Source: Prorocentrum cordatum
Lineage: Eukaryota > Sar > Dinophyceae > Prorocentrales > Prorocentraceae
DNA: 64,000 bases
Direction: 5' to 3'
Assembly: GCA_963575745.1 (NCBI GenBank)
Contig: CAUYUJ010015748.1
Location: forward strand, 129,001-193,000
The notes under the pieces are model-generated. The model saw only the letters and a program-made list of their open reading frames with translations, made no database searches and was not told the origin of the DNA. Position numbers and translations under genes: made by a program. Within the stretch, counting starts at the first letter, position 1. Each line of letters begins with the position of its first letter. Shown in pieces: positions 601 to 23,865 of this stretch.

Positions 601-1495
601 ACCTTTCAAGGCGGTCCAAGAGGCCCCCAAGATCTCCCCAAGACGGCCCGAGAGACCCTCAAGACCGCTCAAAGACGGCCCAAGAGCGCTCCAAGAAGGC
701 CCAAGAAACCCTGAAGAACTTTTTTTCGGAGCCCAGGAGAGCTCCAAATCGGTCCAAGAGGGGCCCGAGAAACCCTCCAGACGGTCCAAGAGAGTCGGGA
801 GACGCCGAAATATCACTCCCAAACGCCTACGATGGCCTCAAGACGGCCCAACACGCCTTCAAGACGCCCCAAGAGGTCCCTAAGAGGTCCCTAAGCGGCG
901 TCCCAAGAGACCTCCCACTAGCAAAAATCGTCCCATTCCCTTAGGACAACGTGCATTTTTAACATATCCGCCTCTTCGTCTTTCACGCCTTTCAAGGCGG
1001 TCCAAGAGGCCCCCAAGATCTCCCCAAGACGGCCCGAGAGACCCTCAAGACCGCTCAAAGACGGCCCAAGAGCGCTCCAAAAAGGCCCAAGAAACCCTCA
1101 ATAACTCTCTTTCGGGGCCCAGGAGGGCTCCAAATCGGTCCAAGAGGGGCCCGAGAAGCCCTCCAGACGGTCCAAGAGAGCCGGGAGACGCCGAAATATC
1201 ACCCCCGAGCGCCTTCGATGGCCTCAAGACGGCCCAGCAGGCCTTCAAGACGCCCCAAGAGGTCCGTAAGCGGCGTCCCAAGAGGGCTCCCACAAGCAAA
1301 AGTCGCTTCATTCCTTTAGGAAAACGTGTATTTTTAACGTATCCGCCTCTTCGTCTTTCACACCTTTCAAGGCGGTCCAAGAGCCCCCAAGATCACCCCA
1401 AGACGGCCCGAGAGACCCTCAAGACCGCTCAAAGACGGCCCAAGAGCGCTCCAAGAAGGCCCAAGAAAACCCTCAAGACGGTCCAAGAGGCCCCA
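601..1495. repeat. Three tandem ~380-bp units
   Basis: CCTTTCAAGGCGGTCCAAGA begins at about 602, 988 and 1363, giving spacings of about 386 and 375 bp. Each unit continues with CCAAGACGGCCCGAGAGACC and then a GC-rich arm ending in CGTCTTTCA. The third copy is incomplete. No gene is seen. Confidence 0.85.
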
Positions 1496-1910
1496 ATACG
1501 GCCCCATGATTGAGGTCCACAGGGGCAACCTGAACGGAATCTTTGAGCCTCCCGCCCAAACACGCCCCCGAAAGGCCCCTAGAAGCCCCCAAGTAGCCCC
1601 ACGAAGCCCCCAAGAGAGCCCCAAGAGGCCCCCAAGAGGCCGCAAGAAAGCCCCAAGAGGCCCCCGAGAGGCCCCCAGGAAGCTCCCAGGAGGCCCCCAA
1701 GAGGCCAGGCAGACCCCCCCAAGAGACCACCAAGAGGGCCCACCCAGAGCCATCCACGAGGCCTCCCAGAGTTCCCAAGAAGCTCCCACGAACCTTCCAA
1801 GGGCTCCCAAGACCCCGCGAGGCCTCCAAGAGCTCCCAAGAAGCTTCCCAGATGCCTCCAAGGGCTCCCAAGAGGGTCACAAGTACTCCTCCTGAGAAGC
1901 TCCTTAATGC
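1496..1910. repeat. CCAAGAGGCCCC short-period repeat
   Basis: Degenerate copies of CCCAAGAGGCCCC fill the interval. The same repeat returns at 2560-2670, 3300-3414, 11152-11180 and 20560-21150. Open frames here encode only Pro/Arg/Gln/Ser-rich low complexity on one strand and Gly/Leu/Trp on the other. Confidence 0.85.
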
Positions 1911-2454
1911 TCCCAGAAGAGACTCCCAGAAACATCCATGAGCTCTCCGATATGCCCCCTCCCCAGATTCCCAGCACTCAGATTTTCTCGCGTCCCTCAC
2001 CCTTGGATCCTTCACTGCGTTTTCCTCCAATTTCGATTGGATGAGGATGAGCTTGGGATGGTCCTGGACATGTGTGGGGGGCTCTGGAGGTCAGCGTGAA
2101 TTCTGAGAGGTTGTCGGTTGCGTGTCTTCTGTAAAAACAACCAAGAATAGGAATAATGGAAAGACCGCACATACATCACCGATCCCCAAACGGCCCACAT
2201 GTGTATGCATTCGGCAACGTGTATGATGTGGGATGTCAAGCACGTCTGGCCCCATCCTCCTCGAAGTGGTCGCCCTCATCATCCTCCGCCTCCACCTCCT
2301 TCTATCCGTCCCTCCCTCCCTCATATCCCTGCCCCACCTCCCTCTCCTCCATTTTCTCCTCTTCCTCCTCATATTTCCTCCCAAAGTGGGGTGGGACGGA
2401 CCCCGGGCGAACCCTCAGGAACCCCGACAACATACAGGAATCCCTGCAAAGCTC
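1911..2454. other. Stretch without a recognised gene
   Basis: Mixed-composition sequence that becomes CCT-rich from about 2265 to 2370. I see no frame with protein-like content. Confidence 0.5.
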
Positions 2455-2551
2455 CGAGGAGGAGGAGGAGGAGGAGGAGGAGGAGGAGGAGGAGGAGGAG
2501 GAGGAGGAAGAGGAGGAGGAGGAGGAGGAGGAGGAGGAGGAGGAGGAGGAG
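2455..2551 (+). repeat. (GGA)n microsatellite
   Basis: About 97 bp of almost pure GGA with a single GAA interruption. It explains the poly-Glu, poly-Gly, poly-Arg, poly-Ser and poly-Pro frames at this position. Confidence 0.95.
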
Positions 2552-2559
2552 GGGGCCAC

Positions 2560-2700
2560 CCAAGAGGCCCCAGGGGAGCCCAGTACGCCGCCAAGGAGCC
2601 CCAAAACGCTCCCAAAAAACCCCCAAGAAACCCCCAAGACGGCCCCAAGAGGCTCCAAATAGCGCTCCAGGGCCGGCGGAATGAGCGAAGCGATTACATA
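2560..2700. repeat. CCAAGA repeat ending in a dispersed module; candidate empty site
   Basis: After CCAAGACGGCCCCAAGAGG comes TAGCGCTCCAGGGCCGGC and then GGAATGAGCGAAGCG. The same order occurs at about 11152-11211, directly to the right of the large transposon, but here it is uninterrupted. I therefore read this as a paralogous unoccupied copy of the insertion site. Confidence 0.7.
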
Positions 2701-3299
2701 GTCCCCAGACAATTGTCCTACTTGTTCCTATGCTGGAATAGATTCCCCCAGTAGAGGGACAGGCCCGACTTGATACTACGAGTGGTAAGCGAGGCCGCCC
2801 CCAAGAGCTGCAGGGCACCGGCGGCCCGACGGAGAGCAGGCCGCCCCCAGGGCGCCCCCGAGGCGGCGGCTGGCCGCCGCTCCCCGAGTCTAGGGGCGAG
2901 CGCAGGACTGGAGGGGCCCCGGGACACACAAATTCGCCGGCCCAACGGGCCAGAGGCGTGCTAAGATCTCTGGGAACTACCCTGACCTTCCAGGAGGGCT
3001 AAAAAATAGCACGCGACTTAAACACCTATCCCAGAGCTATTATATGTCTTGGTTTTAGGTTGTTTCGTTTAGTGTTTTTCGGTTTTTTGGCTTCCTGTGC
3101 TGAATAATAGCTCTCTGGAAGGTCAGGGTACTGAACAATATTTCTAGTTCGCGCGCGCGGGGCGGCCCCTGGGGGGCCCCCGGGCGAAAAGTACCCTGGC
3201 CGATCCCCGGCCGGGTCCCGGGCGATCCCCAGGGGGGAGGCTATTTTTCGCCACCCCTCACGAGGATCGTGGCCTCCGAGGGGGGCGCTGCCAACGACT
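2701..3299. other. GC-rich stretch without a recognised gene
   Basis: It contains GTAGAGGGACAGGCCCGACTT at 2751-2771, a short module that recurs with small changes at about 56033 and 59695. The rest is GC-rich with CCCGGG-type runs. No convincing coding frame. Confidence 0.5.
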
Positions 3300-3414
3300 A
3301 CCCCCCCTCCCGCCCCGAGGGGCCCCCAAGAGCCCCCCAAGAGGCCCCAGAGGGGCCCTAGACGCTGCCAGGGAACCCCAAGACGCTCCCAAGAAGCCCC
3401 TAAGAGGCCCCAAA
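3300..3414. repeat. CCAAGAGGCCCC repeat, left flank of the transposon
   Basis: Degenerate CCAAGAGGCCCC units run up to ...GAGGCCCCAAA immediately before the terminal inverted repeat. The repeat resumes as AAGACGGCCCCAAGAGG at 11152, which shows that the element interrupts this repeat. Confidence 0.8.
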
Positions 3415-3447
3415 CCCAGTAGCCGAAAAAGCTTAGAACAAATAGAT
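3415..3447 (+). repeat. Left terminal inverted repeat
   Basis: Begins CCCAGTAGCCGAA, followed by A and then AAGCTTAGAA, then CAAATAGATC. The right end read as reverse complement differs at one base within the first 24 and then stays similar (AAATAAATC). Confidence 0.85.
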
Positions 3448-3660
3448 CTATAGTTATCTTCATGAAAAGATAACCAACACATCTTAAAAGATAAGTCATG
3501 CGCATGATAAACATAATATGTTCACATTTATCTGTTCGGAGAGATAAATACACCAACAATTATGGCATACTTATCTTATCTTCAAGATAATTATGTCATA
3601 ATTATCTTCAAGATAACTATCTTATACTCAAGATGATTATCTTATAATTTTGTTATGCAG
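3448..3660. repeat. Left subterminal zone with AAGATAA/TTATCTT motifs
   Basis: AT-rich, with about ten copies of AAGATAA or its complement. Several are paired as palindromes, such as TTATCTTCAAGATAA. In CACTA elements, subterminal repeats of this kind bind an element-encoded protein; that role here is inferred. Confidence 0.7.
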
Positions 3661-3798
3661 TCAATGTCGTCATGGCCGTCGCCATCACAATCCTCATCGT
3701 CGTCGACGCCGTTGCCGCTGTTGCTCTTCTTTTGCCCGAAGCATGTTGTTTCTCCGTGTTCCACACTGTAGTTTGCTCCAGCGATTTCTGTTCGCGCG

Positions 3799-4041
3799 AT
3801 GGAGGTGATTAAGACGTTCGGCAAGATTAACACTAGATCTACAGAGCGCAAGATCTGGCGGCACGACAAGAGAATAGGGGGTGAGGAGTACGCCAACCAA
3901 CGCCAGATTGAGAGGCTGGGCCCAGACGCAGCACTGGAGTGCCGCTTGTGGTCGATCCACTACAAGTTCCCGCTGCGCCCGTTGCCCTACCCTGAGTGGT
4001 TGCAGCACGTTCCTGGGACACCTTCGCCCTATGCGCAGTAG
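3799..4041 (+). CDS. Small basic protein, gene 1 of the transposon
   Basis: An 80-residue frame with diverse, protein-like composition: a basic N-terminal half (KTFGKINTRSTERKIW, then HDKR) and a C-terminal half with aromatic and Pro residues (YKFPLRPLPYPEW). It does not match a family I recognise. A GTC/CAT-rich spacer precedes it (about 3660-3735), as for the other genes of the element. An A-rich tract and hairpin copy 1 follow 70 bp after the stop. The ATG at 3799 is the first in frame after the spacer; an upstream exon cannot be excluded. A product of this size could be an accessory DNA-binding protein, but nothing visible proves it. Confidence 0.5.
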   Translation: MEVIKTFGKINTRSTERKIWRHDKRIGGEEYANQRQIERLGPDAALECRLWSIHYKFPLRPLPYPEWLQHVPGTPSPYAQ

Positions 4042-4110
4042 CTTCCTTTTCTGTGCAGACCTGGGGAACTCGGTAGTGAAAAAAAAGAAACAACAAACAA
4101 AAAAGACAAC

Positions 4111-4126
4111 CTCCGCGAGCGCGGAG
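4111..4126 (+). promoter_or_regulatory. Hairpin copy 1
   Basis: CTCCGCGAGCGCGGAG: a perfect 7-bp stem with a 2-nt AG loop, preceded by AAAAAAGACAAC and followed by TGGTTCA. It lies 70 bp after gene 1. Role unknown; 3'-end formation or transcript processing is a guess. Confidence 0.75.
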
Positions 4127-4149
4127 TGGTTCACATGGGCACACCATTC

Positions 4150-4234
4150 AACAACAAGAAACCAAACAACTAAACAACAAAAACAACAACAACAGCAGCA
4201 GCAACAACAACAACGACAACAACAACATCAACAC
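4150..4234 (+). repeat. (CAA)n/(CAG)n spacer
   Basis: CAA-type repeats fill the space between hairpin copies 1 and 2. They create an apparent poly-Gln frame that is not a gene. Confidence 0.8.
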
Positions 4235-4239
4235 GTATC

Positions 4240-4255
4240 CTCCGCGCACGCGGGG
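4240..4255 (+). promoter_or_regulatory. Hairpin copy 2
   Basis: CTCCGCGCACGCGGGG: 7-bp stem including one G-T pair, loop CA, followed by TGGTTCAT as in copies 1 and 4. It stands ahead of gene 2. Confidence 0.7.
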
Positions 4256-4299
4256 TGGTTCATACGTTTATTGCATAGCATTGTCATCCTCATGAACAC

Positions 4300-4390
4300 C
4301 ACTCCGAGGCGCATCATCATCGTTATCATCACCACCATTACATACCATTACCACAATCAACACCGACATCATCGTCTCATCACCATCATC
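4300..4390 (+). repeat. CAT/CAC-rich spacer before gene 2
   Basis: Degenerate CAT/CAC trinucleotides. A similar run occurs downstream of hairpin copies 3, 4 and 6, so it is part of the intergenic pattern of this element. Confidence 0.7.
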
Positions 4391-4410
4391 GTTGCGATTC
4401 TGGCTTGCAG
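4389..4410 (+). promoter_or_regulatory. Possible spliced-leader relic or splice acceptor before gene 2
   Basis: TCGTTGCGATTCTGGCTTG then CAG. It closely resembles the sequence before gene 3 (5914) and, more loosely, the dinoflagellate spliced leader 3' half (GTAGCCATTTTGGCTCAAG, known). A plain acceptor ending in CAG is the alternative. Confidence 0.4.
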
Positions 4411-4462
4411 AACGTCGCTTCCCCCTTTTTCTCCACTAGCACACTCGTGGCCGCTTCCCGAG

Positions 4463-5686
4463 ATGTCGGGCAAACCTCGTCGCAAAAGGCCGACGGAGTC
4501 TCAGGTGGACCCCGAGACGTTGGCAGACCAATGGAACGACCTCGCGAAGTTAAGAGATCCAGGATTCCGTTGGGATGGGTCGGGGTATGGCGCCACCAGG
4601 GCGCAGCCGCTAGATGAAGACACGATGGTTCAATACGAGCGCCTCTTGCAGATCCTGCTCCAGCTCGCGCCGACGGGCTTCCCGACTCACAAGTCATTGG
4701 CGCAGACCTTCGAGAAACTCCACAGTCGCCATGGAATTTTAGGTTGTGATCCACGCTTCGTGAATCGAAGCGCCACGTTGGCATCAGAGACATGGAGAGT
4801 AATGACGAAGCACATCTACAACGCAGCGCTGAACGAGAAGGTGCTCAAGAACAGCTCCCTTCGAGCGTTGGTGGATATGATCGCCTTGCCATCTGCAGAT
4901 CTGGAATCAGCGTCGCGCGAAACGTTTGAGGAGGCGGCAACAGACGAACCTGGAACCTGGAGAACAGAGCCAGCCAGCGGGAGTCGCGACGCTAGAAGTG
5001 CTGCCGACTTGAGCGCGTCGAATGTCCAAGAGCTCTTCAACATGAGCGCGGATGCAGGCGGCGATACGGAAGTCGAGACTGACGTAGAGCTTTGTGGCGT
5101 ATTCTGCAAGTGCCCAGAGTGCACCAGGATGATCATGGTGAGTGGTGATTCGGGTGAGCAGGAACGCGTGGAGATCCCCTCGGCAGCCATCGGCGGCCAG
5201 AAACGTGACACCAAGAAGATGCTGCAGAGCGAGAGTGGCGCCAAGAAGGGCAAAGGCAAGGGCTGCGCCAAGAAGGGCAAGGGTTGCGCCAAGAAGAGCA
5301 AGGGAGGCGCCAAGAAGGGCAAGGGCAAGGGCAAGAGTTGCGCCAAGAAGAGCAAGGGAGGCGGCAAGGGCAAGGGCGTCAAGGTGAAAATGCGACTGCG
5401 TGGCAAGCAGGGAAACAAAGGCAAGGACAAGGACAAGGAAGGGGACGCTGGCAAGGACATCGCAATCCCGACGACGATCATCCAGAGGCGCGAAACAGCT
5501 CAACGTCGAGGGGAGGCGTACTTGCTCGACCGTAAGGGCATCTACCTCGTCGGCATCACTTCGAAGAGGTCCCCGAACTACAATTCTCTGATGGAGACGC
5601 TCAAGAACGAGGTCAACAGCGGTGCCGTGAAGACCAAAGAGGACGCGAAGAGGTGGCTGGACGAGCATGTTTCGGTGTGCGATTGA
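4463..5686 (+). CDS. Lysine-rich protein with a Cys cluster, gene 2 of the transposon
   Basis: 407 residues. The frame is open further upstream, but only through spacer repeats. The ATG at 4463 opens the first protein-like segment (SGKPRRKRPTESQVDPETL). Residues 1-150 are a mixed globular-looking region. A Cys cluster C211-x3-C215-x-C217-x2-C220 could bind zinc. Residues ~258-310 are AKKGKGKG-type repeats, strongly basic and suited to nucleic acid binding. The C-terminal ~75 residues (from IQRRETAQRRGEAYLL) look folded again. I do not recognise the family. Its place in the element suggests an accessory DNA-binding protein like TNPA of CACTA elements, but that is inference from position and charge only. 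Hairpin copy 3 follows 33 bp after the stop. Confidence 0.7.
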   Translation: MSGKPRRKRPTESQVDPETLADQWNDLAKLRDPGFRWDGSGYGATRAQPLDEDTMVQYERLLQILLQLAPTGFPTHKSLAQTFEKLHSRHGILGCDPRFVNRSATLASETWRVMTKHIYNAALNEKVLKNSSLRALVDMIALPSADLESASRETFEEAATDEPGTWRTEPASGSRDARSAADLSASNVQELFNMSADAGGDTEVETDVELCGVFCKCPECTRMIMVSGDSGEQERVEIPSAAIGGQKRDTKKMLQSESGAKKGKGKGCAKKGKGCAKKSKGGAKKGKGKGKSCAKKSKGGGKGKGVKVKMRLRGKQGNKGKDKDKEGDAGKDIAIPTTIIQRRETAQRRGEAYLLDRKGIYLVGITSKRSPNYNSLMETLKNEVNSGAVKTKEDAKRWLDEHVSVCD

Positions 5687-5718
5687 CGTCGTGAGAAAAA
5701 GGTGAAAAAAAGGACATC

Positions 5719-5734
5719 CTCCACGAGCGTGGAG
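5719..5734 (+). promoter_or_regulatory. Hairpin copy 3
   Basis: CTCCACGAGCGTGGAG: perfect 7-bp stem, loop AG, 33 bp after the gene 2 stop and just after GTGAAAAAAAGGACAT. Compared with copy 1, both stem strands changed (G to A and C to T), which preserves pairing. Confidence 0.75.
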
Positions 5735-5754
5735 TCGGCGCGTCCTCATGAGCA

Positions 5755-5912
5755 TCACCCTCGTCACCATCAACATCATCAACATCGTCGCATCGTCGTG
5801 CTCACCACCATCATCAGCATCACCGTCGTCACCATCAGTATCATCAACATCATCATAATCATCACATCATCAGCATCACCATCCATCTCCATCACCATCG
5901 TCATCGTCATCC
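5755..5912 (+). repeat. CAT/CAC/ATC-rich spacer before gene 3
   Basis: Degenerate CAT/CAC trinucleotides from hairpin copy 3 to the start of gene 3; no gene content. Confidence 0.75.
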
Positions 5913-5913
5913 T

Positions 5914-5932
5914 TCGTTGCGGTTTTGGCTCG
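5914..5932 (+). promoter_or_regulatory. Possible spliced-leader relic before gene 3
   Basis: TCGTTGCGGTTTTGGCTCGA matches the known dinoflagellate leader CGTAGCCATTTTGGCTCAA at about 15 of 19 positions, including an unbroken TTTTGGCTC. It lies 40 bp before the ATG. Genomic leader relics are known from recycled dinoflagellate cDNAs. Confidence 0.5.
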
Positions 5933-5970
5933 ATCGAGGGTCTTTCGTGCGCCCCTCCTTGAAGAGAAGG

Positions 5971-6990
5971 ATGGGCAAGAGGAGGAACAAGTCTGCTCTG
6001 CCAGAACCTGAGGAAGATGTCGCGCCTAAAGCCAACCCTCTGGCCAAGTGGTGTATCAATGCGAGGATAGAGGCTGCGAGTCGTGGCATGCCCTTGCCGA
6101 AACAGGAGATGAAAATCGAGACGGAGGCCGACGAGGTCGAAGAGCCACCCGGCAAGAGAGCCGCTGCAGTTGCCTCGGGACCACCGCCACCAGCACAGAA
6201 GGCCACGGCAATAAAGAATACAGCAGCAGCACCACCAGCACCCGCAAAGACGGCAGCACCAGCACCACCAGCAGCACCAGCACCCGCAGACATGGAGACG
6301 GAAGCCGACCTCATGAGCATGGACGCTGCGACGTGGGTGAGTGAGTTTGTGAAGAATTCAAAGGAAGAATACAACGCGTTCAACTACCGTCTTCGGGGCA
6401 AGCCTGAAGAGACCAGGGACGAGTGGAAGAGGATCCAGAAGACGGGATCGGCGTTCGAGGCAATGCAGTTCGTGGAGACAATCAGGTCTGACCAGACCAG
6501 GCACCGCAGCGACATCCATCGGAAGTTCGACAAGGAGGAGTTCTTCAATACATGGAAGACGTGGAAGGAGGCGCTGGAGAAGTACGACGAGCCGATCTTG
6601 CTGGCCATGGTAAAGGCGAAGACACTGGAGACACGACGCGACAAAGCCATCCCAGAATACTTGGACGTGCCATACCCCAGGTACTTGGAGGTCAAGATCT
6701 CGTCTGAGAGAACCACGCAGCTCAAGGAGCAGGGGTACCAGCTGACGGCGGAGGAGCAGCTGACCGAGGACCACTTCGACAGGACCAAGAGCGACTTTGC
6801 CGCGCTCGCAGCGGCGACGAGGGCAAGCAGCAGCGGCCACAGCAGCAGCAGCAGCATGCCCCAGCAGCAGGACGACGGAGCGAAGCAGATGCCAGGGTCA
6901 GTGCAGGTCGCGCTGAAGGGGGCGAGGAACGCCCACAGCATGGCCGACAGGTTCATCCGCGAGCTCGGCGCGGCGATCACGTCCAGCCAG
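5971..6990 (+). CDS. Gene 3 of the transposon, exon 1 (unknown protein)
   Basis: Encodes 340 residues. The ATG at 5971 (GKRRNKSALPEPEED) is chosen over one 54 bp upstream because that one lies next to the leader-like sequence. Order: a basic/acidic N-terminus, an Ala/Pro-rich linker at about 70-110, then a charged, probably helical domain (EEYNAFNYRLRGKPEETRDEWK onward, about 127-280) and a Ser/Gln-rich linker. The protein-like sequence ends at ITSSQ, where GTCTGG gives a GT donor at 6991 in phase 0. Beyond it the frame is only poly-Glu from (GGA)n. Exon 2 at 7787-8020 continues in phase. No family recognised; in this element it is probably an accessory protein. Confidence 0.65.
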
Positions 6991-7786
6991 GTCTGGGCTG
7001 GGGAGGAGGAAGAGGAGGAGGAAGGGAGGTAGGGAGGCAGCGAGGGAGGGAGGGGGGAGGGAGGATGTGAGGCGGAGGAGGAGGAAGGAGGAGAGGAGGA
7101 GGAGGAGGGGAGGAGGCGGAGGAGAGGAGGAGGAGGAGGACGGAGGAGGAGAGAGGAGGAGGAGGAGGAGGAGGAGGAGGAGGAGGAGGAGGAGGGAGGA
7201 GAGGCCATCTGAAAGTCATCTTAAGATGATCTTGAGATGACCTTATCTGATAGAATCAATAAGAACTTAAGATCATCTGAAAGTCATCTTAAGATGACCT
7301 TAAGATGAAGCTGTTTTTTCGAGGTTGGGGCGCTGCCCCGCCTCCCTCCCCCTCCCCCTCCTTCCCCCTCCGTCCCCTTCCTCTTCCCTCCTCCTCCTCC
7401 TCCGCCTCCTCCTCCTCATCCTCCTCCTCCTGCTCGTCGTCATTCGTCCCTCCTGCTCATTCATTCCTCCTCCTCCTCCTCCTCCTTCCCTTCCTCCTTC
7501 TCCTCCTTCTCCTCCTGCTCCTCCTGCTGGTCCTCTTCCTGCTGCTCCTCCTCCTCCTCCGCCTCCCCATCCTCCTCCGTCCTGCGTCCTCCGTCATCCG
7601 TGCCCCATCCTCTTTCCTCCGTCTCCTCCCCCTCCTCCTCATCCTCCTTCTCCTCCTCCTCCTCCTCCTCCTCCTCCTCCTCCACTCCTCCTCCTCCTCC
7701 TCCTCCTCTTCCTCCTCCTCCTCCTCCTCCCTCCTCCTCCTCCTCCTCCTCCGCCTCCTCCTCCTTCCTCCTCCTCCTCCTCCAAG
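6991..7786 (+). other. Gene 3 intron with complementary GGA and TCC arms
   Basis: GT at 6991, AG at 7785-7786, about 796 bp. The 5' part (about 7005-7203) is GGA-rich and the 3' part (about 7330-7785) is TCC-rich, so the two arms are complementary. Between them, 7205-7305 holds two copies of ATCTGAAAGTCATCTTAAGA and other palindromic ATCTTAAGAT motifs. The TCC arm also provides a polypyrimidine tract. Confidence 0.6.
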
Positions 7787-8020
7787 GGAAACGCGAACGC
7801 GCATGGGTGCAAGATCGAGGCCGACCTTACGTCGCTGAAGGCGGCGCTCGCGACGGACGACCAGCTGCTGCTGGACTTCGAACAGAGGTGCGTCTCGGAC
7901 TGGCAGGCAGTCAAGGCAGCGGACATCGAGGCTGCGGCTAAGGTGGCCACGAGCATCGACGAGGATATCAAGAAGGACCGCAAGAAATTGGCCGCGATGC
8001 GGGCACTCTGGAAGCTTTGA
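7787..8020 (+). CDS. Gene 3 of the transposon, exon 2
   Basis: Begins after CTCCTCCAAG and reads GNANAHGCKIEADLTSLKAA in phase 0 with exon 1. It ends ...RKKLAAMRALWKL and a TGA, 77 residues. Composition is helical and charged (heptad-like Leu/Ala spacing), matching the end of exon 1 and unlike the Pro/Ser-rich translation of the TCC run before it. The stop is followed by AAAAAATGAAATAAAAAAAG and hairpin copy 4 at 35 bp. Confidence 0.6.
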   Translation, partial: GNANAHGCKIEADLTSLKAALATDDQLLLDFEQRCVSDWQAVKAADIEAAAKVATSIDEDIKKDRKKLAAMRALWKL

Positions 8021-8054
8021 GGGGGCCGCGACAAAAAATGAAATAAAAAAAGAC

Positions 8055-8070
8055 CTCCGCGAGCGCGGAG
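8055..8070 (+). promoter_or_regulatory. Hairpin copy 4
   Basis: CTCCGCGAGCGCGGAG, identical to copy 1, after an A-rich tract and followed by TGGTTCATCATC. It lies 35 bp after the gene 3 stop. Confidence 0.75.
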
Positions 8071-8072
8071 TG

Positions 8073-8073
<1 letters not shown>

Positions 8074-8158
<85 letters not shown>

Positions 8159-8210
8159 ACATCATCATCACCATTATCACCATCATCACTATCATAACTC
8201 ACACCATCAC
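8074..8210 (+). repeat. (CAT)n microsatellite
   Basis: Nearly pure CAT for about 85 bp, then degenerate CAT/CAC. It accounts for the poly-His, poly-Met, poly-Asp and poly-Ile frames here. Confidence 0.95.
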
Positions 8211-8228
8211 TACTATCCTCAGCACTAC

Positions 8229-8685
8229 CCCCTCCTCCTTCTCCCATTCTCCTCCTCCTCCTTTTCCTTCTCCTCCCTCCTCCTCCTCCTGCTCCTCCTC
8301 CTCGGCCTTCTCTTCATTATCCTCCTTCTCTTCCTCCTCCTCCTTTTCCTCCTCCTCCTCCTCCCCCTCCTCCCTCCGCCCTGCTCCTTCATCACCCACC
8401 TCCTCCTTCTCCCGCCTCCCGCGCCTCCTCCTGCTCCTCCTCCTCCCCCTCCTGCTCCTCCTCCTCCTCCTCCTCCTCCTCCTCCTCCTCCTCATCATCA
8501 TCATCATCATCATCATCCCTCCTCCTCCTCCTCCTCCTCCCTCCTGCTCCTCCCTCCTCCTCCTTCTCCTCCTCCTCCTCCTCCTCCTCCTCCTCCTCCT
8601 CCCCGCCACCACTGCTCCTCCCTCCCTCCTCTCTCTCTCACCCATCCTCCTCCCTCCTTCTCCCCTCTGCCTCCTCCGGAGCGAA
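8229..8685 (+). repeat. (CCT)n-rich run
   Basis: CCT trinucleotides broken by a short (CAT)n at about 8493-8517. No gene. Confidence 0.9.
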
Positions 8686-8796
8686 ACAAAAGCCACAGCA
8701 TCGCCATCGTCACCACCATCTTCTCGAACACCACGACAACAAACAAAACATCAGAAGAAAAAAAACCTGTTGGCTATGACGGCGATGGTGTCGATC

Positions 8797-8837
<41 letters not shown>

Positions 8838-8853
8838 TATGATGATGATGGCT
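8797..8853 (+). repeat. (GAT)n microsatellite
   Basis: GAT repeats ahead of hairpin copy 5, complementary in type to the (CAT)n that follows copy 4. Confidence 0.9.
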
Positions 8854-8876
8854 GCAACCGCACATAACTAACATTC

Positions 8877-8892
8877 CTCCACGGGCGTGGAG
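8877..8892 (+). promoter_or_regulatory. Hairpin copy 5
   Basis: CTCCACGGGCGTGGAG: perfect 7-bp stem, loop GG, 68 bp before the ATG of the transposase-like gene. Confidence 0.75.
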
Positions 8893-8959
8893 TGGCAATG
8901 AGCATCAACACCACAACGCAATGTAGTTCAGTAGTCCCTTTCCTTTGGTTTAAGACAAT

Positions 8960-10723
8960 ATGTTAGCGCCTTTGTGGGCGCATTTGCCTGCCCCAGCACC
9001 GCGGCGCAGAGGGTGTTGGCGCATGCGCCAAGCGGCTGATCAGTTGGATCCTCCTGTTGGCGACCTTCGGCCCCCGAAGATATCCAGGCTGTTTGGCAGC
9101 CATTTGCTTTCATGGGGCGAGGGGGGTATCTCTGCAGCGAGGCTGCAGTCGTTGGCCGTTGCTGGGAAAACTGATGGGTTCGAGCATCCAATGCTCACTC
9201 GGCTGGCTGGATTGCGCGAGGGGCAGCGCGCTCAATCTTCTTTGATGAGCTTGCTGGAACAATGCGGCGTGCCGCAAAAGATTTCTCATTTCCCTGGCGA
9301 GTTCGATACTCATTCTATTTTGCCTTCGACTTGGATTAGTATTGTGCATGAATTCCCTCCAGAGTTCAAAACCCGTCTCGGCGCAGAAAGAGGGAAGGTA
9401 CGCATGTTTTGGCAACAGTTTCTCAGCAAGCCTGCTAACCAAGACGTCAAAGATAGCCATCCTGTCGTTGGCGGAAAGGATCTCGATTTCCTGGAGACCG
9501 TCATCCCGTTCACTATCCATGCAGACGCTGGCCCATTTTCTGAAACAACAGCCTGTTACGTGGTCAGCTGCGCATCTTTGCTTGGCGTCGGCGATGCTAA
9601 GTTCCAAACATTTGTTTGTGCATCGTATGTGCAACCTGCGGGAGGCGGGGGTGATGATGCGTGGTGGGGTCACTTGCTGGACAATGTCTTGGCGCTGGGC
9701 TCAGGCGTGGTCAACGGCAGGGAGGTGGCGCGCGACGCAGATGGCACCCTTTGGTGCGCTGCATTACTTTTCGTGAAATGCGACGAAGACGTTCGAGCCA
9801 ACGACTTTGGTTTAACTCATTTTTCTGGTGCTAACGAAGTATGCCCAGACTGTTTGGCAAATAGATCAGAAAGGCCCTTCACAGACTTGTCAGCCAACGC
9901 GGCGTGGAGGCCAGGGGAGGCCATGTATTTCATCGTATACAAAGCCAGGGCGAGAGAACCACAACACCCTTTAGTAGCGAGCTCGTTTTTCTGCCACCGT
10001 TTCTTCTTTCCGATAGACGTTATGCACCTCCTCGAGTGCAAAGGCGTGACGCCTTTGGTTTACGGATCCGTTTTGTCTTGGCTGCTTTTGGACGCAAGGT
10101 TGGGGCCGAACAGAGATGCGCGCCTGGCTGCCATCAGCGAGCACAGGCAAAAGTTTTACGACGATCGGCCTGGCAGCAACAGGCTCCCAAAGATTTACAT
10201 GTCCACTTGCACTCGGGACGGGTGGGGCAACTTTGCTGGCCCCGCCTTCAAGGCTGCCAAGACTAGAGGGGGAGCGCCATTTTTTAGAGAACTGGTGCAC
10301 CGTCATTGTGTTTCTGCAAGTCCTCGGGACATAGCGTTGCGCAATGTTGTCGCTTGTTTGGATGACCTTTACAACGCGCTGTATGCCTCTCCGGTGTTTC
10401 CTTCGGATGCAGAAGTTGATGGGATTCGCCAGATTTGTTTGAAGTTTGGAAACGCCTATCAAAAGATGCGAGAATATTCGCGTCGCGCGGGCAGGTATGC
10501 TTTCAATGTAACCCCGAAGGTGCACAAAGTTCAACACATCCCAAAGTTATCGACGTGTATCAATCCAGTTCGAGTCCAAGTCTACAGTGAAGAATCAATG
10601 ATGGGCGGAATAACGAAAACCTGGAGAGGGTCGAAAAATGGACGATATAAACATGTGGTTCAAAGAGTTGTGCTGATCAAGCAGCTAACTGGGATGCTGT
10701 TGCGTTACGAGCTAGCCTTATGA
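8960..10723 (+). CDS. Putative CACTA/TNP2-like DDE transposase, gene 4 of the transposon
   Basis: 587 residues, one uninterrupted frame with diverse composition. Seen: HADAGPFS at residues 187-194 (Asp189); a CPDC pair at 295-298 after GANEV; PIDVMHLLE at about 351-359 (Asp353, His356, Glu359); and SEESMMGGITKTWRGSKNGR near the C-terminus (Glu544/545). From family knowledge, TNP2/KDZ-type transposases have a first Asp in a strand, a DxMH-like second Asp motif, a zinc-binding CxxC insert and a late Glu. The likely role is to cut and join the ends of this element in the nucleus. The start at 8960 is the first ATG after hairpin copy 5; a second Met at residue 22 is possible. The terminal repeats around the gene support the call, but no alignment was run. 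Confidence 0.65.
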   Translation: MLAPLWAHLPAPAPRRRGCWRMRQAADQLDPPVGDLRPPKISRLFGSHLLSWGEGGISAARLQSLAVAGKTDGFEHPMLTRLAGLREGQRAQSSLMSLLEQCGVPQKISHFPGEFDTHSILPSTWISIVHEFPPEFKTRLGAERGKVRMFWQQFLSKPANQDVKDSHPVVGGKDLDFLETVIPFTIHADAGPFSETTACYVVSCASLLGVGDAKFQTFVCASYVQPAGGGGDDAWWGHLLDNVLALGSGVVNGREVARDADGTLWCAALLFVKCDEDVRANDFGLTHFSGANEVCPDCLANRSERPFTDLSANAAWRPGEAMYFIVYKARAREPQHPLVASSFFCHRFFFPIDVMHLLECKGVTPLVYGSVLSWLLLDARLGPNRDARLAAISEHRQKFYDDRPGSNRLPKIYMSTCTRDGWGNFAGPAFKAAKTRGGAPFFRELVHRHCVSASPRDIALRNVVACLDDLYNALYASPVFPSDAEVDGIRQICLKFGNAYQKMREYSRRAGRYAFNVTPKVHKVQHIPKLSTCINPVRVQVYSEESMMGGITKTWRGSKNGRYKHVVQRVVLIKQLTGMLLRYELAL

Positions 10724-10767
10724 TTTTCGCGCTGGTGCTCAGTAGTGGTTATTAATAGAAAAGAATC

Positions 10768-10783
10768 CTCCACGAGCATGGAG
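10768..10783 (+). promoter_or_regulatory. Hairpin copy 6
   Basis: CTCCACGAGCATGGAG: as copy 3 but with one stem mismatch (C-A). It lies 45 bp after the transposase stop, after AATAGAAAAGAAT, and a CAT/CAC-rich run follows to about 10865. Confidence 0.7.
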
Positions 10784-10949
10784 CGTCCAAAACCGCAGCG
10801 TCATCATCACCATCACCATCACAACCATCCTCACAATCGTCATCATCACCACCATCGTTGTCATCAGGAACTTCAGCAGTTGGTAGTGGCATACATGAAT
10901 AGCAACGTTTTACACCAAAATACAGCTGCGACCTAAAAAAACACAAAAC

Positions 10950-11100
10950 CATAATTTCAAGATAATTTAACATACTTTTGAGATAATTATCTCAAAATCA
11001 TGTTTTTATTAAGTTCCACCTGAGATGAACATATGTCGCATTATCTTGCAAATGTCTAAGATTATCTTCGCAACAAGATAATGGGGCGCATGTTAAACAT
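10950..11100. repeat. Right subterminal zone with AAGATAA/TTATCTT motifs
   Basis: AT-rich with TTCAAGATAATTT, GAGATAATTATCTC, ATTATCTTGCAA, GATTATCTTCG and CAAGATAATGG. It mirrors the left zone. Confidence 0.7.
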
Positions 11101-11118
11101 AAGCAAGCTCTAAACAAC

Positions 11119-11151
11119 GATTTATTTTTCTAAGCTTCTTCGGCTACTGGG
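11119..11151 (-). repeat. Right terminal inverted repeat
   Basis: Ends TAAGCTTCTTCGGCTACTGGG, the inverted counterpart of the left end, directly followed by AAGACGGCCCCAAGAGG. Confidence 0.85.
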
Positions 11152-11290
11152 AAGACGGCCCCAAGAGGCCCCAAGTAGCGCTCCAGGGCCGGCGGAATGA
11201 GCGAAGCGAATAACAATTACCCCCTTCCTGGGTGGACACCAGCGTGTCGCCGTGATGGTCGCTGTGGAGGTCGATAAGTGGAGGTGTAAG
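11152..11290. repeat. Right flank: CCAAGA repeat plus dispersed modules
   Basis: Repeats the order at 2630-2697 (TAGCGCTCCAGGGCCGGC, then GGAATGAGCGAAGCG), then a copy of the CCTTCCTGGGTGGACACC module also found at 509-590. Confidence 0.75.
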
Positions 11291-12537: not shown

Positions 12538-15500
12538 ATGGTCACAGAGGCCGGCATCGAGAAGCACTTCGTCTACGTCTCACTACGACTAGGCCACAAA
12601 TGCTTGCCTGTACCGACCAGCAAGGGCTGGGCCAAAGCCCGGAGAGAGAGACGCACATCACGATTGCATACCTACCCGACACCAACAATAACTACTTCAA
12701 CTTACCATACGATCGGCTCACAGCAACACTCCCGGGCTGGAAGTACCTATGGCCAGATCATCACGTCGAGGTACACTGGTCACAACGGCCAAATGAAATT
12801 CCATACTACAGGAAAACCGACTACAGACCCGACCACCAGCCATTCATCGACGACGAGGAGCCACCAAGATACTTACGCAAAGCCCCACTCATACACAGCA
12901 CATGGGAGCAGCTCAAAAAAGATATCGACCAAAACAAGGTACGACTAAAGTACTCCCACGACAATGAAGACGACAACGATCAAAACCTCCAATAAACACC
13001 TTACCACTTTTACAATCTATTCCTCCAACAGAGCACCAAGAGGTACGAGTTTCAGATGGGCGAGGATTACCCCATCCACACGAAGATCAACTACAGCAAA
13101 AAGAACTACGAAGCACGTACATTCACATGCTCAATGGCCGACGCAAGCCACAACGTCGCATCAGGGTCTGAGCTACTCTCACTCACCAGCTACCCCGCTG
13201 ACGTACAGCACACATCAGGAGCCTCAACTCTACACCCACCATGGGCAACATGCATACCAGAGAAGAGCCGACGTCACATCACCCCACGAGTCACATACGA
13301 GCAGCCCAAATACGTCGAACTAGAAGACTCTAACAACGTCGAATGCGGCCTACTAAACCAATGGGAGGGTACCGCACGCTTCCAACCCAACTACCATGCA
13401 GGTCCAACACCTCCCACGCACTACGAGCTCAAATCACCAACCAAACATAACCCCAATTGGCCACAGATGATCGAAAGCACTGGACCTACGCTCATCACAG
13501 AGCTGTACCTGGGCAAATACAACAGCTACAGCGAATGCAACCGAACTACATTCAGGCCGAACCATCAGACGTATTACCGCACCCTCACGGACCACAATTC
13601 ACATGGACCATCGGCTTCCGTTTCCGCACCGACCTACCACCAGACGATGAGCACTACGCATTCGTACACCAACATCTTACAGAACGATACGAGACCTGGA
13701 AGGACTTCTATGACTACCTGGAAGAATTGCGAATTATGTGCAATGGTCAAAAGGACATGCTACCACCAGAGCAAACCATACCCATCATCACGTCCAAGAA
13801 AAAGAAAACGAAACACGACAAGAGACGATACGAAGACTGCAACGAATACATTACACCCGAGCCACCGCGGATGCCAGCCGGCACAAAGCGACGACGCACC
13901 AACGGCCCAATGGCAAGACGACCAATACGAAGACTACAACATGTCAGCGTCAGGCAAGAACAACAGCAACAGAGACGACCCATGGGCCAAGATAAGCCGA
14001 GCTTCCGACTTTCTCGAGACTTGTCTATCACCGCTCAAACCAAACAGATACCATGACATACACCTACCCAGTGGCAGCACCACCTACTGCCACTATGCCG
14101 ACTCAGACGAAGATACACAAGGAGAAGACATTTGGCACCATGCAGTTTACTACCAAGAGGCAGCCTACACATACACATTCAAGGTCCCAACGCCCACCTA
14201 CGACTGCCTGGATGGCATAGATACCTCAACACATACAACAACGAGATCTTTGTACACAGCGACGGCCAGCACTACCTACCGCAGCCGCCACCACGGCCCG
14301 ACCCCCAAGCTACACCACTGACCACTTGTGCATTCTCAGCTACGACCAGCACGAAGCTGATCAAGCTCAAGGACGTCGTCAAAGCGGACTCACACCAACC
14401 ACTACACATACCACCCAAGCAACCGAACTTCTCATGATGCGGCAACGACTTACAAGCTTCTGCGGCACCATACCGCGACAGCTTAACATTCAGAGTACAA
14501 GTAGTCCAAACACAGGCCCACATCACCACGCTGATCGCAGGAGGACAAGCACCACTCAAAAATGCCAAGATCAAAGCGATACACGAAGTAGCACACTTGC
14601 TTAACACTTCTTAACACTTGCCACGACGACCACGACAGGAAGTACAACTGGACAGTACGACTGCCCGACACAGCACTCCTGCTACAATGCAGATGCAGCG
14701 CACACGACCCAAGGCCACAACCCCCCAGCAAGCGCGACGACAGCGACAGCTCCAACGACAGGGACAACATCCCTAGCATAACTCAAAGAACTCAACAAAC
14801 ACCAACTTAACCACCACCACCAATAGCCCAGCCCTTTCTCAAACCACTTGCACGAACTCGACGACCATCCTGGATTGCTGGCAACAAACCGACCAGCCCA
14901 ACAAATACAGAAGACGATACGCATACCCAGCAACGGAGCACCAGGCGACACAGCGGCAACTGCAGTCTAAAGTGTCCACACGACCTGCAACCACGCAGCA
15001 AGACAACACTCCACACTCGCAACGAAAACAAAACACAATACTAAGCAAGCCTATGCCAACTATACGCAGTAGCATAACGACCACGGTAATTACGACCTCA
15101 CCACATCAACGACCGTACAAACCACCACCTGCGCATCTGACCCAGCAGCCGTCGACCACGCCTAACACTAGCAACCTGCACCAGCATTGACCGCAACGAT
15201 CAAATGGTCACCGTCGTACATGTGCATACCGCCACACCTTCAATCATCAGCATTCATGATACCGATCCTGTACCCGCCTGGAGAAGACATTAACACACAA
15301 CAATAGGTACAAACCATCCTGTGGCGACAGCTAGCACCGCAGACACTAGCGACAAGGCACACTTACTTCCCGACACAAACCGCACAAGCAATTGCAGCAT
15401 ATCAAGAAGCAGCTCGACGCGGGACACAACGGATACACAGATTCGACCGACGTGTCATCTTCATCAATAAGACTGGTAACCCATCATTCGAGAACTACAT

Positions 15501-22815: not shown

Positions 22816-23865
22816 CCCTCCCCTGAAGAGTTGCGCAGCCAGTGGACCTGCACATCCTTTCGGACCTGCAGGTTCCAGGACTCCCTCATATTTATCTGAA
22901 GCAATGGATTTACATCCCAGTGCGTTCACAGGGCATTTTCAACTCGCACGTCTGGCCGGCGATGTCTTGGGGCGCCGCGCCATCAGCTTCCCAGCCAGAG
23001 AACACAAGACCCACCGTGGACGGGAGGACGAGAACAAAAATACACAACCGGCAGCGCTCACCAGCACCGTTGGCAGGCCGTTCCCCTGGAGCCGCCCAGC
23101 GAGTGCAAGGGCGCACCAGGGGAACCCAGCTGGAGTTTTGGACGCTGGAGCTGCCCGGCGAATACAAGGGCGCACCAGACGAGCCCAGCGGATGCAAGGG
23201 CCGAGGCCCGGAAGAGCGGCGACGGGGAGCGGCGGCACTGTGGCAACGAGGGCTGGCAGCGACCCACGGAGCGGCCACGAGGAGCGGCTGCTGGTACCGT
23301 TGGTCGGGCGTTTCCCTGACGTCGCGCGTTTGCGAATGGCCAACACTGCACCTGCCCAGGTGCGCGAGAGAGGCCCGTTGCGGGCTGGCGGTCGACGGCC
23401 CGACGGCGGACCACACGGCAGACGACGCTGCAATCCCCAAGGGACACTGGCGTGCAAGAGCCAAAGGGAATCCCGCGCCACGCTGAGCGTGAACATCCTA
23501 CTCCCTCGGAGCACACTAGCGTGAACACCAGCGAATGAGACAAGCGAGCGCCTGCCCACCAGGATCAAGCGCTGGACGCAAGCCAGGGAAGCCCCCAAAG
23601 GCTTAAAAGAAAAGAGTGGAGTACAAAACACTGTTCCGTCTTGTTTTCCTGCTCCCCCAACCGCCACGCGATGTCGGAGCGGAAAGAAAACGCGGACGGA
23701 GCCCGGAAAAAAATGCGCCAGAACCGGCCGCAGAAGCTGCAACACGCCACCAAGAAACGCACGGCCCTGTCGGGGCCCGCGAAAGCCGCGACGCCCAGCG
23801 GTGCGCTTCCCCCCGCTCCCGGCCCCAGCCGGAAGAGAAGGAAGAGGCTTTGGAAGGAATGAGGA
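22816..23865. other. GC-rich stretch without a confident gene
   Basis: Open in several frames on both strands because GC is high. It contains near-repeats such as AGCGAGTGCAAGGGCGCACC, AATACAAGGGCGCACC and GGATGCAAGGGC at 23095-23200. None of the overlapping frames stands out as coding. Confidence 0.4.

Follow-up and report, generated by a model that had tools for sequence, protein, structure and literature searches.

The described systems closest to the element reported here lie in the CMCT clade of DNA transposons, which, as set out in PMC12730594, comprises EnSpm/CACTA, Mirage, Chapaev, Transib, Plavaka, ESTA and Lanisha and is characterized by catalytic D, D and E residues, C(2)C and H(3-4)H motifs, target duplications of 2-5 bp and mostly CA..TG termini. 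We analysed a 64,000-nucleotide stretch of the dinoflagellate Prorocentrum cordatum (contig CAUYUJ010015748.1, forward-strand positions 129,001 to 193,000; hereafter the window, in whose numbering positions are given). At 3415..11151 it carries what is probably a DNA transposon of four genes that retains both of its ends and belongs to a family of several copies in the genome, with a predicted RAG1/Transib-like transposase as gene 4, CCCAGTAGCC ends and a 2-bp target duplication. As in the CMCT clade, its DDE transposase bears C(2)C and H(3-4)H between the second D and the last E, and its duplication falls within the 2-5 bp range. It differs in lacking any Pfam match, in its four-gene set and in the hairpin that follows each gene in one subfamily.

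A first-pass annotation, made from the letters of the window, had proposed a complete transposon with intact ends and four genes, and this was confirmed by the ends, the gene set and further copies on contigs C12336 and C17030. The left terminal inverted repeat (3415..3438, plus strand, beginning CCCAGTAGCC) and the right one (11128..11151, minus strand) agree at 23 of 24 bases, as had been claimed, and no further site in the window matches the repeat with up to seven mismatches. The CCCAGTAGCC start is common to the window element, C12336, C17030 and C980, and the right-type end adjoins the transposase in the window copy as well as in C12336 and C17030. The mirrored AAGATAA-rich zones of the annotation were also borne out: both subterminal zones are A+T-rich and contain AAGATAA/TTATCTT in both orientations, with nine motifs on the left (3415..3660) and four on the right (10940..11151). 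These counts were reached by none of 5000 composition shuffles of each zone, and the motif occurs nowhere in the 7.3 kb between the zones and twice elsewhere in the window.

Subterminal arrays of short motifs in both orientations, and a transposase accompanied by an accessory protein, are likewise features of CACTA/En-Spm elements (TNPA, TNPD; PMC2613891). The En-Spm products come from one spliced gene, whereas the genes here are separate and have their own end signals. The element also differs in its three accessory genes, with no TNPA similarity established, in its termini (CCCAGTAGC, not CACTA) and in its duplication (2 bp, not 3 bp).

The interruption of a repeat on both sides, also noted in the annotation, was supported by alignment of the joined element flanks to an uninterrupted host-repeat copy at 2560..2720 (plus strand), used as the empty site. 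This alignment placed the duplicated AA at 3413..3414 and 11152..11153, scoring 194 with removal of 2 bp (AA), 191 with removal of 3 bp and 188 with removal of none. A 2-bp duplication was found in all four elements covered end to end: AA in the window copy, CA in C12336 (7279 bp), CG in C17030 (7871 bp) and AC in C980 (7303 bp); the flanks of the last three match over 2 bp, not 3. RAG1, the enzyme responsible for cleaving antibody genes, and Transib duplicate 5 bp of target, in contrast to the 2 bp here. The end sequence of the RAG system includes the heptamer of the recombination signal sequence, to which the element ends are alike in CAGT only, and no RAG2-like gene was recognised in the element.

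A transposase search of the assembly that holds the window (4.13 Gb in 21,875 contigs) gave at least 77 match rows. The second copies that the annotation had proposed to look for were found with CCCAGTAGC ends; the exact 24-base end is confined to the window element, and at two or fewer mismatches the only other site in the assembly is one on C8213 (two mismatches). The stretches examined comprised ten transposase-bearing relatives, together with C8213 and a piece of C13877. All ten relatives have an end starting CCCAGTAGC on the transposase side; the same scan matched a few other places, and the support in C21492 is a short shared start only. C980 and C13877 are 98.6% identical over 916 columns and diverge exactly at the element end. 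The claim that three further genes travel with the transposase is upheld by the full four-gene set in the window copy, C12336, C17030 and C13533 (in C13533 the stretch covered showed no right end). Gene 3 occurs in nine of the ten relatives, the tenth (C14381) being covered for just 3.9 kb beyond the transposase; gene 2 occurs in five and gene 1 in three. Gene 1 was not found in C21492 within the stretch covered, and for the remaining copies of 65% identity the stretch ended short of the expected location of gene 1 or gene 2.

Several further observations concern these copies. In C13533, C1947, C14075, C14381 and C21321 (L018-L023, L026-L029), a further end sequence, in inverted orientation, lies about 640 bp inward of the transposase-side end. 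At the C8213 site (C8213:481834, L032) a CCCAGTAGCCCAGAAAGCTTAGAA end stands by itself, no gene of the element being found in the 10 kb covered; it is perhaps a decayed copy. C21492 has equal-scoring transposase copies at 23274 and 38634, about 15 kb apart, perhaps a local duplication.

Gene 4 (8960..10723, plus strand) encodes a protein of 587 aa that the annotation had called transposase-like, and both its predicted fold and its catalytic motifs agree. In a PDB fold comparison, the predicted model matched the core fold of RAG1/Transib, with likeness to Transib, ProtoRAG and RAG1 across residues 42-587; D275 comes after a strand and E545 opens a helix region. The catalytic residues are kept among homologues (D189 in 17 of 18 rows, D275 in 17 of 17, E545 in all 11 rows with a letter). 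C295-x2-C298 and H522-x3-H526 sit between the second D and the last E of the window protein. The cysteines lie at D2+20/+23, compared with +19/+22 in mouse RAG1, and the histidines at E-23/-19, compared with -25/-20, on the RAG1 positions given in PMC4914335. Exceptions in the zinc motif are L, S and S at C295 in homologues P0011, P0015 and P0017, and S at H522 in P0017. Gene 4 is thus predicted to be a DDE transposase of RAG1/Transib-like type.

The annotation had proposed aligning this protein to TNP2/EnSpm and KDZ profiles. The RAG1 match might then reflect a shared RNase H core only, in a transposase that is in fact KDZ or TNP2. According to PMC12730594, CACTA (TNP2) enzymes have C(2)C and H(3-4)H just as RAG1 does, and a relation to CACTA is therefore possible. 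Neither assignment gained support, since gene 4 has no Pfam match; the sole Pfam match over 18 transposase members was GREB1_C (E 0.041, one member). KDZ chains were absent from the PDB fold matches, which carries no weight as a test of KDZ. The RAG1 match, in contrast, extends over residues 42-587, beyond the RNase H core, and we regard a KDZ or TNP2 identity as unlikely. The element is akin to CMCT/RAG transposons and is assigned to neither EnSpm, Transib nor another named superfamily. Among the matches listed in an open-licence literature search, none dealt with this element or with hairpins at gene ends in dinoflagellates.

We found a hairpin, CTCCRC-GAGC-GYGGAG (pattern CCTCCRCGAGCGYGGAG; 6-bp stem, 4-nt loop), at six plus-strand sites in the window copy: after gene 1 (4111..4126), again after gene 1 in degenerate form (4240..4255, with two sites there also in C12336 and C17030), after gene 2 (5719..5734), after gene 3 (8055..8070), upstream of gene 4 within the inverted cassette described below (8877..8892) and after gene 4 (10768..10783). 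The distances from the stop codons of genes 1-4 are +70, +33, +35 and +45, and random placement of six sites yields such gene-end positions in one per million trials. When, for every gene, the 170 nt following the stop were scanned on the gene's strand and the best match was retained, with no hand-picking of sites, the hairpin was present with two or fewer mismatches at 12 of 12 gene ends in the window copy, C12336 and C17030, 27-162 nt past the stop. In six further relatives it was present with up to three mismatches at 11 of 13 gene ends (gene 3, 5/5 with no mismatch; gene 2, 1/1; transposase, 5/6; gene 1, 0/1). Covariation was assessed on 15 chosen rows, including 9 of 31 sites from relatives that were picked as well-formed gene-end sites. 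Among these rows 96.7% of cells are paired; one base pair of the stem is A-U in seven rows and G-C in seven, and eight cells are altered on both sides, a level of compensatory change matched by none of 500 shuffles. The hairpins likely mark or set the mRNA 3' ends of the element's genes. Homologues lying on contigs slightly longer than one gene fit single-gene messages, if these contigs are transcripts.

Little is known of the signals that define mRNA 3' ends in dinoflagellates, and the hairpin could be a host-wide gene-end or spacer signal that the element merely shares. We consider this rather doubtful: sites with at most one mismatch number 16 within four elements (window copy 5, C12336 5, C17030 6, C980 0) against none in 79.9 kb outside them, and the hairpin is lacking in the C980 subfamily, a related group within this genome. 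At three mismatches, a few other window sites match. C980 (L033) has a different, C/T-rich palindrome, CCTCTCCTCGAGGGGAGG, about 90 nt after its transposase stop; this subfamily may use another gene-end hairpin. The five matches to the hairpin pattern among viral contigs all fall in one coding stretch of a phage and were dismissed as chance.

Palindromic hairpins after each gene also recall the hairpin rule of Mimivirus (PMC4402537), and several of the genes here belong to no known family, as might be expected of an integrated DNA virus or a virus-derived element rather than a classical transposon. The element differs from Mimivirus in being a transposon, in the conservation of the hairpin sequence itself and in 3' ends that are inferred. 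None of the genes was recognised by profile searches as a capsid, ATPase or polymerase gene, the transposase matched nothing in the viral fold library at E <= 0.001, and scans of viral contigs returned no relative. Together with the predicted RAG1-like fold and the 2-bp duplications, these results make a viral origin extremely improbable and favour a DNA transposon. Scans of prokaryotic contigs returned no relative, and Rfam gave no match at gathering thresholds.

The transposase lies in a cassette (8853..10856, plus strand) that is inverted relative to C12336 and C17030, judging from alignment direction. Against C12336, element bases 5439-7442 align directly (81%), while 1-726, 867-4602 (in pieces) and 7632-7737 align in reverse; C17030 gives the same pattern, with 5388-7431 as the direct part. 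The opposite directions indicate that the transposase gene and its flanking hairpins are turned around with respect to genes 1-3 and the two ends. The transposase is opposite to gene 3 in seven of nine relatives with gene 3, and on the same strand in C980 and C21492, as in the window. The one-strand layout of the annotation therefore describes the window copy and genes 2-4 of C980 and C21492; it does not extend to the seven relatives with a reversed transposase. ATG-rich and CAT-rich tracts in opposed orientation lie outside both cassette hairpins (8797-8850 and 10798-10870), from which we infer a recombination route for a flip. Such microsatellites are also prone to bad assembly, and a single family layout could have been disrupted artefactually; since seven contigs show the inverted layout and C980 and C21492 share that of the window, we hold an artefact to be very unlikely and take the two orientations as genuine.

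All three remaining genes are on the plus strand. Gene 1 (3799..4041) encodes 80 aa of no known family, with protein identities of 69% in C12336 and 76% in C17030. Gene 2 (4463..5686) encodes 407 aa with a K/G-rich middle and a CxC..C motif; we found 15 homologues, and its predicted model has two confident regions around a KG-rich middle of low confidence. The four-gene layout of the annotation holds, with the amendment that gene 3 is split by a predicted intron. Its exon 1 (5971..6990) ends CAG before GT, and exon 2 (7787..8020) is preceded by a pyrimidine-rich tract and AAG; removal of the predicted phase 0, GT..AG intron of 796 bp (6991..7786) leaves an open frame of 417 aa. In C13533 the same junction is read straight through without an intron, which supports the splice model and indicates that one lineage has the intron while another lacks it. 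The intron has a purine-rich start, a pyrimidine-rich end and a repeated TCATCTTAAGATGA palindrome, and may be an introner-type insertion. The contigs that hold a gene 2 homologue (P0020) and a gene 3 homologue (P0018) are both 4210 bases long and are probably identical.

Ratios of nonsynonymous to synonymous substitution (dN/dS; Nei-Gojobori, own script) against C17030 were 0.37 for gene 1, 0.46 for gene 2, 0.60 and 0.38 for the gene 3 exons and 0.30 for the transposase. They were 0.37-0.89 against C12336, whose transposase frame is broken, and 0.39-0.65 against C13533, with the transposase saturated. A motif, CGTTGCxxTTxTGGCTC, precedes genes 1, 2 and 3 by 50-90 bp (window 3710, 4390 and 5915). 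Its likeness to the dinoflagellate spliced leader is weak (equalled by 109 of 2000 shuffled probes, with the window-wide pattern count at chance), and we make no claim of it. Beside the element, an open frame of 441 codons with skewed composition spans 12996-14321.

Several results weigh against our interpretation. The link to RAG1 depends on a predicted model, derived from 13 sequences, whose mean predicted local distance difference test score is 74; searches of Pfam, NCBIfam, PHROGs and PDB sequences returned only chance-like scores and linked the transposase to no family; P0016, the most distant homologue, has E in place of H526, and three others lack C at C295. The ends read CCC..GGG (CCCAGTAGC..GCTACTGGG), where CMCT ends are typically CA..TG, and the 2-bp duplication of the window copy hangs on one base of a C run, so that 3 bp is also possible. 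Transposase frames are broken in C12336 and C17030, and gene 1 was not found in C980, covered end to end. The hairpin is missing or strongly decayed at 2 of the 13 gene ends of the six further relatives and was found at none of the five gene ends examined in C980 and C21492; these gaps indicate that transposition itself does not need it. Covariation is weak on the six window rows alone (matched by 26 of 500 shuffles), and single 40-nt stretches have only a modest folding advantage over shuffles (z -0.8 to -2.3). The predicted model of gene 2 has no PDB fold match, so any role for that gene is a guess.

The element would move by cut-and-paste of the RAG1 type, the transposase pairing the CCCAGTAGCC ends, cutting both through D189-D275-E545 as RAG1-type enzymes do, and duplicating 2 bp of target. 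Gene 2 most likely, and perhaps genes 1 and 3, would bind the AAGATAA arrays and bring the ends together; for gene 2 this possible role as a subterminal-DNA binder is a guess by analogy with TNPA, as described in PMC2613891. Each gene would yield its own mRNA, with the 3' end set at an A-rich tract plus hairpin. Recombination, either of the opposed CAT/ATG tracts or of the palindromic hairpins that flank the transposase, might flip the cassette, and a flip would be harmless because each gene has its own end signal.

We tentatively suggest that the family could be a deep, new dinoflagellate lineage of RAG1-type transposons with its own transcript-end hairpin, built of self-contained gene cassettes in which the transposase flips while expression is kept. 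RAG1-type transposases would then extend to a lineage undetected by the sequence profiles tried, and the cassette inversion and the lineage-specific intron would represent ordered events within one transposon family.

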